Below, in pieces: positions 57,142 to 64,000 of a DNA stretch of 64,000 nucleotides. The notes below the pieces were generated by a model that worked only from the letters and a program-made list of their open reading frames with translations, ran no database searches and was not told where the DNA came from. How positions within the stretch are numbered: position 1 is the first letter of the stretch; every line of letters starts with the position of its first letter. The stretch is taken from positions 62,001 to 126,000 of the forward strand of contig JBCCIS010000005.1 in assembly GCA_039028155.1 (NCBI GenBank). The letters run 5' to 3'. Source of the stretch: Pseudomonadota bacterium (GTDB taxonomy: Bacteria; Pseudomonadota; Alphaproteobacteria; SP197). A program made the position numbers and the translations under genes.

Positions 57142-58689
57142 TCAGCCTTTACCAACCATGGTCATGTTGTCTCGCCCCGTTCGCGTTGCTTGGCCGCGCA
57201 TCCAAAGGTCGAGATCACGCGCTTGCCCCTCGGTCAACCGCAGGCCGAGCTTGGTGCGGCGCCAGAGCACATCCTCTGCCGAACACGCCCACTCGTTCTC
57301 CATCAACCAACGGACCTCTGCCTCTGTCAGGTTGCTGCCGAAGGATCGGCCGAGGTCGGCTGCGTTGTGTGCGTTCCCCAGCATGGCTGCCGCTTCCGAG
57401 CCATAGGTGCGCACCAGCCGCCGCGCCCACGGCTCATCCAGGAACGGGTAGTCGGCGCATAGCTTGGCCTCTGCCTCCATGTGCGCATCAACCGGCATGT
57501 TGCCGCCGGGTAGAGCGGTATCGGCGGTCCAAGGCTCGCCCATCGAGGGCAGGTACTGTTTGAGTTTCGCGAGGGCGGCTTCCGCGAGCCGGCGATAAGT
57601 GGTGATCTTGCCGCCGAACACGTTGAGCAGCGGTGTGATACCCCCCGACGTGTCGACCATCAGGACGTAATCGCGCGTTGCCTTGGTGCTGCTGCGTGCA
57701 CCGTCGTCATAGAGTGGTCGCACGCCGGAATAGGTCCAGACGATATCCTTCTCTTCGACCGGCTGGGAAAAGTGGGCGTTGGCGGCATTAAGCAGATAGG
57801 CGCGTTCTTCCGCCGTGCAGGTTGCTGTCTCGGGTGAACCGTCATGGTCCATTTCGGTCGTGCCGATCAGCGTGAAGTCGTCCTCGTAGGGAATCGCAAA
57901 GACGATACGACCGTCATCCATCTGGAAGATGTAAGACTTGTCGTGCTCGTACTGTCGGGCGACGACGAGGTGGCTGCCGCGCACCAAACGGGTGTGGGCG
58001 GGCGCGTTGCGGTGCAGCTTGTAGCGGATGATGTCATCGACCCATGGACCGCCCGCGTTGATCAGGCAACGCGCCTGGATCTGCCGAGTCGCGCCGGTCT
58101 GGCCGTCTTCCAAGGTGACCTGCCATAGGCCATCCCGCCGCTCGGCCAGGACACAGGTCGTGCCGACTGCGATCGTAGCGCCGCGGGCCTCGGCATCGCG
58201 TGCGTTCAAGACGACAAGTCTGGCGTCGTCGATCCAGCAATCCGAGTATTCGAAGGCGCGCTTGAGCGAAGGTTTAAGCGGTTCGCCCGTTTTGTCCTGT
58301 TGGAGGTCCAGGGTCTGCGTTGCCGGCAAGAGGCGGCGGCCACCCAGGTTGTCATAGAGGAAGAGACCAAAACGGACGAGCCAAGCCGGTCGCAGTCCCG
58401 GATTGTGCGGCAAGACAAACCGCATGGGCCACGCGATGTGCGGCACCGCGCGCAGCAAAACCTCACGTTCGACCAGAGCCTCGCGAACCAACCGAAACTT
58501 GAGAAACTCGAGGTATCGCAGTCCTCCGTGGATCAGTTTGGTCGACGCCGACGACGTTCCCTGGCCGAGATCGCCCTGCTCGCACAGGAAGACGCTGAGC
58601 CCGCGTCCCGCCGCGTCGCGAGCGATACCACAACCGTTGATGCCGCCGCCGATGATGGCGACGTCAAAGATGTCGTCGCTCTCAGTCAT
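57142..58689 (-). CDS. glpD: Glycerol-3-phosphate dehydrogenase, aerobic (FAD-dependent)
   Basis: A 515-residue GlpD. FAD motif is IIGGGINGCGIARDAAGRG at residues 12-30; GQGTSSASTKLIHGGLRYLE near 44-63 is the diagnostic stretch, and SVFGGKITTYRRLAEAALAKL-type sequence lies near 360. It oxidises glycerol-3-phosphate to dihydroxyacetone phosphate at the membrane and passes electrons to quinone. I use ATG 58689, since the longer frame overlaps the regulator. It overlaps the upstream glpR by 8 bases and is co-transcribed, next to the glycerol importer genes. Confidence 0.95.
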   Translation of the reverse strand: MTESDDIFDVAIIGGGINGCGIARDAAGRGLSVFLCEQGDLGQGTSSASTKLIHGGLRYLEFLKFRLVREALVEREVLLRAVPHIAWPMRFVLPHNPGLRPAWLVRFGLFLYDNLGGRRLLPATQTLDLQQDKTGEPLKPSLKRAFEYSDCWIDDARLVVLNARDAEARGATIAVGTTCVLAERRDGLWQVTLEDGQTGATRQIQARCLINAGGPWVDDIIRYKLHRNAPAHTRLVRGSHLVVARQYEHDKSYIFQMDDGRIVFAIPYEDDFTLIGTTEMDHDGSPETATCTAEERAYLLNAANAHFSQPVEEKDIVWTYSGVRPLYDDGARSSTKATRDYVLMVDTSGGITPLLNVFGGKITTYRRLAEAALAKLKQYLPSMGEPWTADTALPGGNMPVDAHMEAEAKLCADYPFLDEPWARRLVRTYGSEAAAMLGNAHNAADLGRSFGSNLTEAEVRWLMENEWACSAEDVLWRRTKLGLRLTEGQARDLDLWMRGQATRTGRDNMTMVGKG

Positions 58690-59473
58690 GGTGGTTGTTC
58701 GGGTCGGGCGCACCGCTGGCGATGTTGATATCAACACCGTCGCGCTCGCAGGCATCACAGAAGGCTCGGGGCGGCCGTCGATCACTGACAAAGTGATCGA
58801 TATCGGAGAGATCGCAGATGCGCACGGGCGCGCTGCGTTCAAACTTCGTGTGGTCGCAGACCAGGATGGTTCGACGCGCATTGGCCGCGATGGCGCGCGC
58901 GACAGCCACTTCGCGTACGTCGAAATCCATGATCGAGCCGTCTTCGTCCAGCGCGGACGCGCCGATCACCGCATAGTCGACCCTGAACTTCCGAATAAAC
59001 TCGACCGCGTCGTTGCCGACGATGGCGCCATCGGACTGGCGCACGGCGCCGCCCGCCAGGATGATCTCCTTGGTCGTCGTGCCCGACAAAATGTTGACGA
59101 CGTTGATGTTGTTGGTGACGACAAAGAGGTCGTGGCGTTCACGCAGCGCCAAGGCGACCTGCTCGGTCGTGGTGCCGATATTGATGATCAGCGAGCAGCC
59201 ATTCGGGATCATCGCCGCAGCGTGCTGTCCGATCGCGCGCTTTTCTTCCAACGCCAACGCGCGCCGTTCCGCATAGTCCAGATTGGTCACGCTGGTCGCC
59301 GGCACCGCGCCGCCATGGACGCGGGTCAGCAGGCCACCCTGACTCATGAGATTGAGGTCGCGGCGAATCGTCTGCGTGGTCACGCCGAAATCAGCCGCCA
59401 GACCGTCGACCGTGACGCGACCTTCGACGCGCGCCCGCGCCATGATTTCCGTTTGGCGATCGCTCAATACCAT
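58682..59473 (-). CDS. glpR: DeoR-family regulator, glycerol repressor type
   Basis: A 263-residue DeoR-family protein. The helix-turn-helix is RQTEIMARARVEGRVTVDGLAADFGVTTQTIRRDLNLM, residues 6-43, and the sugar-phosphate sensing domain has IINIGTTTEQVALAL. DeoR repressors of glp operons sense glycerol-3-phosphate. It is divergent from the importer operon, with two TTTC-GAAA dyads between them that could be its sites, and overlaps glpD. This supports assignment as GlpR. Confidence 0.9.
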   Translation of the reverse strand: MVLSDRQTEIMARARVEGRVTVDGLAADFGVTTQTIRRDLNLMSQGGLLTRVHGGAVPATSVTNLDYAERRALALEEKRAIGQHAAAMIPNGCSLIINIGTTTEQVALALRERHDLFVVTNNINVVNILSGTTTKEIILAGGAVRQSDGAIVGNDAVEFIRKFRVDYAVIGASALDEDGSIMDFDVREVAVARAIAANARRTILVCDHTKFERSAPVRICDLSDIDHFVSDRRPPRAFCDACERDGVDINIASGAPDPNNHHD

Positions 59474-59630
59474 TGGGACCGGCTTTCCTGCACTCTTTCA
59501 GATGATACATATTTTGTTTTCGGATGAAATGCATGAGTTTCGCTTGACGGAAACTGAAAAAATAAATGAACATTCTGAGCAGTGAACCGGGTGCGTTACC
59601 GGGATGCAGGAGGAACAGGGGAGAACAGCC
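59474..59630. promoter_or_regulatory. Divergent glpR/glycerol importer control region with two TTTC...GAAA dyads
   Basis: The 157-base AT-rich region holds TTTC-GGAT-GAAA (59518-59529) and GTTTC-N8-GAAAC (59537-59554), inverted repeats that resemble sites for DeoR-type regulators. TTGACG (59544-59549), inside the second one, could be a -35 box, so binding would block the promoter of the importer. The ribosome site GGGGAG precedes the binding-protein ATG. Confidence 0.6.
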
Positions 59631-61376
59631 ATGCGCACAGGATTTAAGTCGGCGGCCCTGGCGATCGGATTGATCGTCGCGGCGCCGGCGGCCTACGCCG
59701 ATATTGAGAAGGCGGAACAGTGGGTTAACGACGAATTTCAGCCCTCGACGCTGACGGTTGAGGAGCAGATGGCGGAGATGCAGTGGTTCATCGACGCCGC
59801 CAAGCCATTCGCCGGCATGGAGATCAACGTGCTGTCGGAGACGATCCCGACGCATACCTACGAGTCGCAGGTACTGACCCAGGCGTTCGAGGATATCACC
59901 GGCATCAAGGTCAACCATCAGCTGCTTGGTGAAGGCGAAGTGGTTCAGGCGGTTCAGACCCAGCTGCAGACCGGCCGTAACCTCTATGACGCCTACATCA
60001 ACGACAGCGACCTGATTGGCACCCATTCGCGCCTCCAGCTTGCCGTCAATCTGACGGAATGGATGGCGGGCGAGGGCGCCGACGTCACCAACCCGAACCT
60101 GGATATCAACGACTTCATCGGTATCTCGTTCACCACAGGGCCCGACGGCAACGTCTATCAGCTGCCCGACCAGCAGTTCGCGAACCTCTACTGGTTCCGC
60201 AAGGACTGGTTCGACCGCGAGGACCTTCAGGCCCAGTTCAAGGAAATCTACGGCTATGACCTCGGCGTGCCCGTGAACTGGTCGGCCTATGAGGACATCG
60301 CCGAATTCTTCACCGTGCATGTCGGCGAGATCGACGGCGTCACCGTCTATGGCCACATGGACTATGGCAAACGCGCGCCGGATCTCGGTTGGCGTATGAC
60401 CGACGCCTGGCTCTCGATGGCCGGCGCCGGCGATAAAGGCTTGCCCAACGGCGTCCCGGTTGATGAGTGGGGCATTCGCATGGAAGAGGGCACCTGCAAT
60501 CCGGTCGGCGCCAGCGTCAGCCGTGGCGGCGCTGCCAACGGCCCGGCTGCCATCTATGCCATCCGCAAGTGGGACGAGTGGCTGCGCGAGTACGCGCCGC
60601 CGGCCGCCGCCAGTTACGACTTCTATCAGTCGCTGCCGGCGCTGGCCCAAGGCAACGTGGCCCAGCAGATCTTCTGGTACACGGCGTTCACGGCCTCCAT
60701 GGTTGCGCCCCAGGAAGACGGCAACAACACGGTTGATGCGGCAGGCAACCCGCTGTGGCGCATGGCGCCCAGCCCGCACGGTCCCTATTGGGAAGAAGGT
60801 CAGAAGCTTGGCTATCAGGACGCCGGTTCTTGGACGATCCTGAAGTCGACGCCGACCGACCGTGCCAAAGCCGCCTGGCTCTACGCGCAGTTCGTCGTCT
60901 CCAAGACGGTCGACGTCAAGAAGAGTCATGTCGGCCTGACGTTTATCCGTGACAGCACCGTGCGTCACGAGAGCTTTACCGAGCGCGCGCCGCAGCTCGG
61001 TGGACTGGTTGAGTTTTACCGGTCGCCTGATCGTGTCCTCTGGACACCGACGGGCATCAACGTGCCTGACTATCCGAAGCTGGCCCAGATCTGGTGGCAG
61101 CAGATCGGTGACGTCAACTCCGGCGCCTTTACGCCACAGGAGGCAATGGACAGGTTGGCCGCCGAAATGGATCAGGTCATGGCGCGTATGCAGGCAGCCG
61201 ACGAGCAAGCGGACGTGTACGGGGGGTGCGGGCCGCGGCTCAACGAAGAAAGCGATCCCGAGTACTGGTTGTCGCAACCGGGATCGCCCAAGCCGATGCT
61301 GGAGAACGAAAAGCCGATGGGTGAGACCATCAGCTATGACGAGTTGGTCCAGCGCTGGGCTGCTTCGGACGAGTGA
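59631..61376 (+). CDS. glpV: Glycerol ABC transporter substrate-binding protein (GlpV-like)
   Basis: A 581-residue extracytoplasmic binding protein with a signal peptide ending AAPAAYA-DIE near residue 23 (MRTGFKSAALAIGLIVAAPAAYA). The sequence DAAKPFAGMEINVLSETIPTHTYESQVLTQAFEDITGIKVNHQLLGEGEVVQAVQTQ matches the large glycerol-binding GlpV of Rhizobium leguminosarum. I start at ATG 59631. It is the first gene of the operon, before two ATPases and the permease, divergent from glpR. A strong terminator follows it. Confidence 0.85.
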   Translation: MRTGFKSAALAIGLIVAAPAAYADIEKAEQWVNDEFQPSTLTVEEQMAEMQWFIDAAKPFAGMEINVLSETIPTHTYESQVLTQAFEDITGIKVNHQLLGEGEVVQAVQTQLQTGRNLYDAYINDSDLIGTHSRLQLAVNLTEWMAGEGADVTNPNLDINDFIGISFTTGPDGNVYQLPDQQFANLYWFRKDWFDREDLQAQFKEIYGYDLGVPVNWSAYEDIAEFFTVHVGEIDGVTVYGHMDYGKRAPDLGWRMTDAWLSMAGAGDKGLPNGVPVDEWGIRMEEGTCNPVGASVSRGGAANGPAAIYAIRKWDEWLREYAPPAAASYDFYQSLPALAQGNVAQQIFWYTAFTASMVAPQEDGNNTVDAAGNPLWRMAPSPHGPYWEEGQKLGYQDAGSWTILKSTPTDRAKAAWLYAQFVVSKTVDVKKSHVGLTFIRDSTVRHESFTERAPQLGGLVEFYRSPDRVLWTPTGINVPDYPKLAQIWWQQIGDVNSGAFTPQEAMDRLAAEMDQVMARMQAADEQADVYGGCGPRLNEESDPEYWLSQPGSPKPMLENEKPMGETISYDELVQRWAASDE

Positions 61377-61506: not shown

Positions 61507-62574
61507 ATGACCCTGGAGTTCCGGAACGTCGCAAAACGCAGCGGCGGCGAGACGTTGATCCACGCGTGTTCGTTCACATTCGAAGCGCCTGGATTCAATA
61601 TCCTCCTGGGTGCCACCAATGCCGGCAAGACGACCCTGATCAAGCTGATGGCGAACCTGGAGCGGCCATCGGACGGCGAGATCTGGTTTGATGGTAAGAA
61701 CGTGACCCGCGCGGCAACGCAAAAGCGCAATGTCAGCCTGGTCCACCAGTTCTTCGTCAATTACCCACACATGACGGTTTACGAGAACATCGCCTCGCCG
61801 CTGAAGATCGAGCGCGTGCCGTCAGCCGAGATCAAACGCCGGGTCGGCGAGGCGGCGGAGCTCTTGAAACTCGAACCGTTTCTAGCGCGTCGCCCGGCGG
61901 AACTCTCCGGTGGCCAGCAGCAGCGCACGGCGCTCGCCCGCTCGCTGGTCAAGGAAAGCAGCCTGGTATTGCTCGACGAACCATTGGTCAATCTCGACTA
62001 CAAGCTGCGCGAGGAATTGCGCGACGAACTGCCGCGATTGTTCTCCGGCCGCAGCGCCATCGTCGTCTACGCGACATCGGAGCCGACCGAGGCGCTGATG
62101 CTGGGCGGACGCACGGCAACGGTGTTCGAGGGCCGGGTAACGCAGGTCGGCGAGACGGCCGATGTCTACCGCCGACCCGACACATTGGAGACGGCGCAGG
62201 TCTTTTCCGATCCGCCGATCAACACCGCGCCGGTGGTGAAGGCGGATGGTGAGATTCGCCTTGGCGATGCCGCGCGCTGGCCTGCCGAAGGCGATGTCGC
62301 AGGCATGCCCGACGGTACCTATACTGTCGCTGTCAGGCCGCACTTCGTCTCGCCGATCGCCGGAGAAACGGTGGGTGTACCAATCACCGGCCGCGTCTTG
62401 ATCACGGAACTGTCGGGTTCGGAGAGCACGGCACATTTCGAATTCGAGGGCCTGACCTGGGTCTCGCAAAGTCACGGCGTCCATCCCTACCGGGTTGGCG
62501 AGGTCCATGGCTTCACGATCGACACCAAGGGCTGTCTCTATTTCCGCGAAGACGGCACGCGGGTAACGGGCTAG
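61507..62574 (+). CDS. glpS: Glycerol ABC transporter ATPase GlpS-like, with non-canonical H-loop
   Basis: A 355-residue ATPase of the MalK/UgpC class with a C-terminal OB-type domain from about 240. Walker A GATNAGKT is residues 35-42, signature LSGGQQQR residues 133-140 and Walker B LVLLDEPLVNLD near 158. The H-loop histidine, normally in THD, is S191 (TSEPTEA). This half-site is therefore predicted to be weak or inactive on its own histidine side, while its signature is good. It is paired with GlpT, which shows the opposite pattern. Gene order and homology give the name. Confidence 0.85.
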   Translation: MTLEFRNVAKRSGGETLIHACSFTFEAPGFNILLGATNAGKTTLIKLMANLERPSDGEIWFDGKNVTRAATQKRNVSLVHQFFVNYPHMTVYENIASPLKIERVPSAEIKRRVGEAAELLKLEPFLARRPAELSGGQQQRTALARSLVKESSLVLLDEPLVNLDYKLREELRDELPRLFSGRSAIVVYATSEPTEALMLGGRTATVFEGRVTQVGETADVYRRPDTLETAQVFSDPPINTAPVVKADGEIRLGDAARWPAEGDVAGMPDGTYTVAVRPHFVSPIAGETVGVPITGRVLITELSGSESTAHFEFEGLTWVSQSHGVHPYRVGEVHGFTIDTKGCLYFREDGTRVTG

Positions 62575-62586
62575 GAGGCGGGCGCG

Positions 62587-63669
62587 ATGGCGAAAATCGA
62601 GCTGAAGGGGCTGCGGCACAGTTATGTTGCGTCACCCACTGGTCCTGATGACTACGCGCTAAAGGGTATCGACCTGGCGTGGGACGACGGCGGTGCCTAT
62701 GCCCTGCTTGGACCGTCCGGCTGCGGCAAGACGACCTTGCTCAATATCATCTCGGGCCTCATCGCGCCGTCCGAAGGCCAGATCCTGTTCGACGGCCAGG
62801 ACGTCACACAGCTTCCGCCATCGCAGCGCAATATCGCGCAGGTGTTCCAGTTTCCGGTCATCTACGACACCATGACCGTCTATGACAACCTGGCCTTTCC
62901 GCTGCGCAACCGCGGTGTTGACCACGGCCGCATCGACGCCCGCGTCAATGAGATTGCCGAGCTCCTGGAGCTCAGCGATATCCTGCGTCGTCGCGCGTCC
63001 GGCCTGACGCCGGACGTCAAACAGAAGCTCTCCATGGGACGCGGTCTGGTGCGCGAAGACGTCAACGTCATCATGTTCGACGAGCCGTTGACGGTCATCG
63101 ACCCGCATCTGAAGTGGAAGCTGCGTTCCAAGCTGAAGGAGCTGCATCACAAGGTCGGCGCGACGATGATTTACGTCACGCATGATCAAACGGAGGCGCT
63201 GACCTTCGCTGATCAGGTCGTCGTCATGCGCGAGGGCGAGGTCGTGCAGGTCGGTACGCCGGTCGATCTATTCGAGACGCCGGCCCACACCTTTGTCGGC
63301 CATTTCATCGGGTCGCCGGGCATGAATGTCATGCCGTGCGAGCTTCGTGACGGTGTGGTGTTCGTGCAGGGCGTCAGAATTCCGATGGCGTCACCGATCA
63401 AGGTGGCGCCGGGTTCCGGCTTCCTGGAAATCGGCGTACGTCCGGAATACATCGACGTTTCCGATGACGGCCTGCCGGTGGAGGTCACGCGTGTCGCCGA
63501 TTCCGGGCGGTTTCGAATCGTTGAAGCCCGCGCTGGCGGCGAACGGATCAACGTCTTGACCCGCGAGGACCAGGTGACGCCCCTGGGGCCGGCAAAACTG
63601 CGGTTCGACCCCGCGCACACCCATGTCTATGCCGACGGCCGCCTGGTCGCCGGCGGTTCGGAGAGCTAG
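62587..63669 (+). CDS. glpT: Glycerol ABC transporter ATPase GlpT-like, with degenerate signature
   Basis: A 360-residue ATPase of the same class. Walker A GPSGCGKTT begins at residue 42; Walker B VIMFDEPLTVID is near 163, with isoleucine in the D-loop; the H-loop THD is intact at H199. The signature motif, expected to read LSGGQQQR, is LTPDVKQK (residues 140-147). So this ATPase has a good Walker A and H-loop but a broken signature, complementary to GlpS. Together they should form a heterodimer with one canonical and one degenerate site. AGGAGG precedes the ATG. Confidence 0.88.
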   Translation: MAKIELKGLRHSYVASPTGPDDYALKGIDLAWDDGGAYALLGPSGCGKTTLLNIISGLIAPSEGQILFDGQDVTQLPPSQRNIAQVFQFPVIYDTMTVYDNLAFPLRNRGVDHGRIDARVNEIAELLELSDILRRRASGLTPDVKQKLSMGRGLVREDVNVIMFDEPLTVIDPHLKWKLRSKLKELHHKVGATMIYVTHDQTEALTFADQVVVMREGEVVQVGTPVDLFETPAHTFVGHFIGSPGMNVMPCELRDGVVFVQGVRIPMASPIKVAPGSGFLEIGVRPEYIDVSDDGLPVEVTRVADSGRFRIVEARAGGERINVLTREDQVTPLGPAKLRFDPAHTHVYADGRLVAGGSES

Positions 63670-63672
63670 GCG

Positions 63673-64000
63673 ATGTTGTCCAAGGTACAGACACAGCGCG
63701 CATGGATTTTCGTCATCCCGGTCGTGCTGCTGGTCGCATTCAACGCGTTGGTGCCGTTGATGACGGTGGTCAACTACTCCGTCCAGGAGACCTTTGGCGA
63801 CAATCTGTTCTTCTGGCACGGCGTTGGCTGGTTCGAGGACGTCCTGCATTCCGAACGGTTCCACGCCGCGTTGGGGCGCCAGCTCCTGTTCACCTTCACC
63901 ATCCTCTTCATCGAGATCCCGCTCGGCGTCATCATCGCACTCGCCATGCCCCGGCGCGGTCTCTGGGTGCCTGTGTGCCTGGTCTTGATGGCGTTGCCAC
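63673..64000 (+). CDS. glpP: Glycerol ABC transporter permease (GlpP-like), 5' part only
   Basis: The first 109 codons of a permease, cut by the window end. A membrane segment (IFVIPVVLLVAFNALVPLMTVVNYSV, residues 12-37) and a second near 75-95 with a RQLLFTFTILFIEIPLGVIIALAM context match sugar-type ABC permeases. The ATG lies 3 bases after the GlpT stop. Further permease and glpK genes would be expected after the window, by analogy with the rhizobial glpSTPQUV cluster. Confidence 0.85.
   Translation, partial: MLSKVQTQRAWIFVIPVVLLVAFNALVPLMTVVNYSVQETFGDNLFFWHGVGWFEDVLHSERFHAALGRQLLFTFTILFIEIPLGVIIALAMPRRGLWVPVCLVLMALP

Follow-up and report, generated by a model that had tools for sequence, protein, structure and literature searches.

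Complementary motif departures in GlpS and GlpT, the paired MalK-type ATPases of a predicted glycerol importer

The glp locus and its likely substrate

The window, i.e., the whole stretch of 64,000 nucleotides that was analyzed, ends within an operon for an ABC importer. Two genes on the minus strand are divergent from this operon: glpD (57142..58740), encoding glycerol-3-phosphate dehydrogenase (DAO and DAO_C domains), and glpR (58682..59473), encoding a DeoR-family regulator. The importer genes lie on the plus strand in the order glpV-glpS-glpT-glpP. The first, glpV (59604..61376), encodes a periplasmic solute-binding protein (SBP_bac_1). The next two encode ABC ATPases of the MalK/UgpC type: glpS (61507..62574; 355 aa), with an intact signature motif and without the H-loop histidine, and glpT (62587..63669; 360 aa), with an intact nucleotide-binding side and without LSGGQ. 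The original prediction had placed both genes correctly. They are separated by 12 bases and share one reading frame, as is the case for 48 of 154 orthologous pairs. The gene for the first permease, glpP (63673..64000; BPD_transp_1), continues beyond the window end; glpQ and then glpU come next, outside the window. The window genome has an S-T-P-Q-U block, as do nearly all complete loci.

Orthologous loci were collected from several sources. A genome-contig scan with GlpT yielded 68 loci carrying a GlpS/GlpT pair, and a GlpT orthologue was found in 85 of 398 sampled Pseudomonadota genomes; this unbiased sample covers Pseudomonadota only. E values set the GlpT orthologues (1e-115 or better) cleanly apart from other MalK-like proteins (1e-75 or worse). 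The combined set of 155 GlpS and 156 GlpT sequences, drawn from the scan loci, the sampled genomes, and the relatives of the window, spans several orders of Pseudomonadota. Every GlpT adjoins a GlpS. One of these GlpS genes, in Mesorhizobium sediminum (L037:3775-4988), carries a frameshift that divides it between two overlapping frames; the adjoining glpT is intact.

The last gene of the block, glpU, encodes a 93-aa DUF2160 membrane protein 3' of glpQ (L178:8365-8643, corresponding to window coordinate about 65364, past the window end), with a PF09928 match at an E value of 1.8e-31. In the sample of Pseudomonadota genomes, full-length DUF2160 proteins and GlpT orthologues occur in one identical set of 85 genomes, and because of this coincidence GlpU looks like an obligate subunit of the importer.

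The closest characterized system is GlpSTPQUV of Rhizobium leguminosarum VF39, a glycerol importer (Ding et al. 2012, as cited in the relevant passages of PMC7912956). The two systems have glpR, D, S, T, P, Q, U, and V in common; in the window, however, glpV precedes glpS, and glpD and glpR are divergent. Given the VF39 literature and the 62% identity between the window GlpV and that of R. leguminosarum, we infer by analogy that glycerol is the substrate in this species. The surroundings support this reading: glpD and glpR adjoin the importer genes in the window; glpK, glpD, and glpR occur among orthologous loci, with glpK in many of them; and the window proteins are 50-77% identical to those of the R. 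leguminosarum WSM1325 glp locus. No glpK was seen beside the window locus.

Motifs of GlpS and GlpT and their conservation

Both proteins contain an ABC_tran domain (PF00005), and their best PDB matches are MalK-type ATPases by sequence as well as by fold. The Pfam OB_MalK domain is barely above the cut-off in GlpT and was undetected in GlpS. The motif coordinates that follow are all on the plus strand.

The nucleotide-binding side of GlpT is canonical throughout. The A-loop tyrosine, Tyr13 (62623..62625), is Tyr in 155 of 156 orthologues and Phe in the other one. Walker A (GPSGCGKT, residues 42-49; 62710..62733), the conserved Gln, the catalytic glutamate (Glu166, in FDEP), and the H-loop histidine (His199, in YVTHDQTEA; 63181..63183) are each canonical in 156/156. 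In place of LSGGQ stands LTPDVKQK (residues 140-147; 63004..63027), with Asp143 at the position of the second signature glycine. This segment aligns without gaps over the LSGGQxQR of solved MalK-type ATPases. No GlpT orthologue has LSGGQ (0/156). Instead, the orthologues share the consensus L-[TS]-[AP]-D-x-K-Q-K, with L140, K145, and Q146 invariant (156 each), [APV] at position 142 in all 156, D143 in 155, K147 in 153, and [TS] at position 141 in 145. Because these positions are near-invariant, the replacement reads as a conserved motif and not mere decay. The D-loop is also unusual: alignments with PDB entries set LTVID (63088..63102) against the MalK-type consensus LSNLD, and TVID is conserved with almost no exceptions among the 156 orthologues.

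GlpS departs from the canonical pattern on its nucleotide-binding side. At the A-loop position, residue 12 (61540..61542), the window protein has Ser, where the orthologues have Val in 140/155 and an aromatic residue in 1/155. The position aligns with a Phe of the structure 1v43, and by this alignment the stacking residue is lost. Walker A reads GATNAGKT (residues 35-42; 61609..61632), with Asn for the fourth-position glycine, and this position is non-Gly in 143/155. Other parts of the nucleotide-binding side are invariant (155/155), i.e., the Walker A Lys (Lys41) and Thr, Gln81, and the catalytic Glu158 of Walker B (LLDEP, residues 155-159; 61963..61980). At the H-loop position is Ser191 (62077..62079), in a segment, YATSEPTEA, that aligns without gaps over the YVTHDQVEA of solved MalK-type ATPases. 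Across the orthologues this residue is Thr in 137, Ser in 18, and His in none. The GlpS signature, LSGGQ (residues 133-137; 61903..61917), is invariant in 155/155.

Thus, neither subunit has LSGGQ together with the H-loop histidine, as CUT1/MalK-type ATPases do. The original prediction had described GlpS as having a good LSGGQ with Ser191 for the H-loop histidine, and GlpT as having a good Walker A and His199 with LTPDVKQK for LSGGQ, and both losses, of the histidine and of LSGGQ, hold across the orthologues. Its list of losses was incomplete, however: the H-loop and the signature stand, but the Walker A glycine and A-loop aromatic of GlpS and the D-loop of GlpT had been missed.

Several comparisons place these departures in context. 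In 39 control ATPases, i.e., 33 of the MalK type (paralogues from the window's own genome, plus ATPases of scan loci) and six from sister systems, the H-loop histidine is always kept (39/39). R. leguminosarum WSM1325 shows the same substitution pattern as the window, with YATTEPSEA in GlpS and GLTADQKQK in GlpT; the window differs in having Ser rather than Thr at the H-loop position and LTPD rather than LTAD. A genome of the same genus encodes a GlpS 97% identical to that of the window, with identical motif residues. The two genomes give dN/dS values of 0.035 and 0.069 for GlpS and GlpT, respectively, and both proteins are under strong purifying selection.

A 101-sequence tree places GlpS in one clade and GlpT in another (support 100 each), both on long stems nested among MalK/UgpC-like ATPases, and the order of branching in the one clade runs broadly parallel to that in the other. 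Raw counts give an impression of strong covariation of GlpT Pro/Ala142 with GlpS Ser/Thr191, but on the joint tree this comes down to only two changes, between Ser and Thr at the H-loop position.

The six sister importers (L199-L204) are arranged in the order V, P, Q, ATPase, with a short, weak DUF2160-like gene near each ATPase. Each encodes a single ATPase (about 40% identity to GlpT) in which LSGGQ and the H-loop His are both canonical, and which presumably forms a symmetric homodimer. In three of the six (L201, L202, and L204), a downstream protein is weakly similar to the glycerol kinase GlpK. No system in the sample shows just one of the two losses, and the sister systems are fully canonical. 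Since the sister systems have a single canonical ATPase, the sequences suggest that a symmetric ATPase was duplicated and that complementary losses followed.

A predicted canonical and a predicted degenerate ATP site

Within each nucleotide-binding domain (NBD), we place the D-loop on the signature side. Together with the head-to-tail architecture of NBD dimers (PMC7756269, PMC5626490), this assigns all five departures (A-loop, Walker A Gly, and H-loop of GlpS; signature and D-loop of GlpT) to the site that would hold the GlpS nucleotide, and none to the site that would hold the GlpT nucleotide. The original prediction, pairing the Walker A and H-loop of each protein with the signature of the other, had called for one canonical and one degenerate site. 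This follows from the head-to-tail dimer, and the three departures that it had not listed also lie in the predicted degenerate site. If five departures are placed at random on two sites, the probability that all fall in one is 2/32. The clustering by itself is therefore modest evidence; its strength comes from its conservation.

A fused GlpS-GlpT model, in which the stop codon was read as Gly purely as a modeling device, was used for single-chain folds and helix starts. The model (pLDDT 84; pTM 0.50, which is too low to establish the dimer arrangement) has MalK-type fold matches, and in both proteins the predicted helix behind the signature or pseudo-signature begins at an equivalent residue (GlpS 135, GlpT 142).

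We favor, with good confidence, a MalK-type (type I, CUT1) glycerol importer whose ATPase is an obligate heterodimer of GlpS and GlpT, in which one site hydrolyzes ATP and the other is degenerate. In this arrangement, the nucleotide side of GlpT (Tyr13, Walker A, Glu166, and His199) would join the LSGGQ and D-loop of GlpS in one complete, ATP-hydrolyzing site. The nucleotide side of GlpS, with Lys41 and Glu158 kept, would face the L[TS][AP]DxKQK of GlpT in a site with poor or no hydrolysis, whose main role would be structural or allosteric. With one site hydrolyzing poorly or not at all, about one ATP would probably be spent per glycerol. We infer the heterodimer assembly, single-site hydrolysis, and stoichiometry from sequence. 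A heterodimer is favored because a homodimer of either protein would be without a complete site. The one-site heterodimer is further supported by the lack of reversion in any orthologue, the adjacency of the genes, the clustered departures, the conserved pseudo-signature, the parallel clades, and the purifying selection.

Four alternatives bear on this reading. The first, a version of the one-site model, is that the GlpS side binds no ATP, so that this site contains ADP or nothing, and the dimer closes with a single nucleotide bound. The losses of the A-loop aromatic and of the Walker A glycine in GlpS would fit this, as would GlpT Asp143. The position of Asp143 is that of CFTR G551, with Asp being the normal state in GlpT, and the CFTR substitution G551D reportedly leads to repulsion of the gamma-phosphate by the Asp (PMC13082197). 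However, the invariance of the GlpS Walker A Lys/Thr and Gln (155/155) is what would be expected with a bound nucleotide, and we consider an ATP-free GlpS side unlikely, if worth keeping in mind.

The second alternative is that both sites hydrolyze ATP at unequal rates, with the GlpS Glu, the Thr/Ser at the H-loop position, and the Lys-rich pseudo-signature making up an alternative working site. Loss of the catalytic Glu is usual in a degenerate site, and GlpS keeps it (Glu158, 155/155), together with Lys41 and Gln81; the pseudo-signature is conserved as well. The invariant Glu and Walker A Lys would not be expected of a simply dead site. Indeed, the kept Glu counts against such a site because most degenerate exporters lose it (PMC7756269, PMC7544095). 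Against hydrolysis at both sites, H-loop mutations drastically lower the ATPase activity of HisP, MalK, and HlyB (PMC11774805), the side without the H-loop His has also lost the A-loop aromatic and P-loop Gly, and both signature glycines are missing from the side that faces it. On balance, we regard unequal two-site hydrolysis as improbable.

Third, GlpS and GlpT could be separate homodimers serving different permeases, in line with the single-ATPase systems that make up most of their MalK-type PDB relatives; since neither protein has a complete site, and the genes always adjoin and share an operon that has a single pair of permeases, this is very hard to sustain. Lastly, although one orthologous glpS is frameshifted, a sequencing error, pseudogene, or lineage-specific change has practically no chance of accounting for a pattern found in 155/155 orthologues at dN/dS values this low, and sequencing error or decay is ruled out on these grounds. 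The original prediction had proposed aligning relatives as the check, holding that canonical motifs in them would make the asymmetry a sequencing or lineage-specific change; canonical motifs are never restored in the 155 GlpS and 156 GlpT sequences, and the residues of the same-genus genome agree.

Returning to the one-site heterodimer, a further-reaching version of it, which we put forward tentatively and would not bet on, is that this family of MalK-type importers became permanently asymmetric before it spread through several classes of Pseudomonadota. Such importers would spend one ATP per cycle, and the second site, with its kept Glu and Lys and fixed G551D-type Asp, would be purpose-built as a regulatory or latch element rather than a worn-out catalytic one.

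Comparison with known asymmetric and symmetric systems

Asymmetric ATP sites are already known from exporters, from CFTR, and from importers of the RbsA/NupO type. In TAP1/2, TM287/288, ABCG5/G8, Pdr5, and CFTR, all non-canonical motifs lie in one composite site, as in GlpS-GlpT; Pdr5, with Tyr for the H-loop His in NBD1 and an LNVEQ signature in NBD2, follows the same logic as GlpS/GlpT (PMC7756269). Making the degenerate site of Pdr5 canonical reportedly led to inactive or uncoupled transport (PMC7756269). These proteins, which are exporters or, for CFTR, a channel, differ in their transmembrane fold, and most have lost the catalytic Glu that GlpS keeps. ABCG5/G8, with a signature and Walker A pattern, is an exception to the usual Glu loss. 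Among importers, the type II systems RbsA and NupO have one degenerate ATP site, as proposed here for GlpS-GlpT (PMC11466899), and this precedent is consistent with the description of such asymmetry in the original prediction as less usual for importers. In RbsA and NupO, however, which belong to another importer class, the two NBDs are fused in one chain, and the Walker A Lys is lost rather than the H-loop His.

The ATPases of CUT1 importers, i.e., MalK (of MalFGK2), UgpC, SugC, and AlgS, share their fold and sequence family with GlpS and GlpT. Unlike GlpS/GlpT, they generally serve single-ATPase systems with two canonical sites. To go by the title of a 1997 paper by Davidson and Sharma, a single mutated MalK subunit reportedly impairs maltose transport severely, while one intact HisP is said to be enough in the title of a 1999 paper by Nikaido and Ames (both cited in PMC11774805). 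No description of asymmetric ATP sites in a MalK-type importer was found in the papers searched, nor was any biochemistry or structure of GlpS/GlpT found; the passages of PMC7912956 that concern the R. leguminosarum glycerol importer make no mention of ATPase asymmetry.

The debate over whether a type I importer needs to hydrolyze two ATPs per cycle has so far drawn largely on engineered mutants. In GlpS-GlpT, a single-site MalK-type importer appears to have arisen by evolution and to have been retained across many bacteria. With sites that could be mutated one at a time in a naturally occurring heterodimer, GlpS-GlpT would be suited to testing the need for two ATPs. It would also show whether the behavior of degenerate sites in exporters and CFTR works in importers, and tell the role of a conserved signature Asp as a normal state rather than a disease mutation.

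Two other tandem ATPase pairs were seen. One, of the MalK type, is in the window's own genome, beside a dhaL-like gene (L179:335-2700; contig C4, about 115.2-117.6 kb); its signatures are LAGGD in the first ATPase and LSGGE in the second, with the H-loop His in both, and the pair may represent a milder asymmetry. The other, in Leptolinea (L088:3875-6098), has the Q-loops FENY and FETY, i.e., Glu for the usual Gln, and MSSGQAQKV in the second ATPase, with His kept in both.
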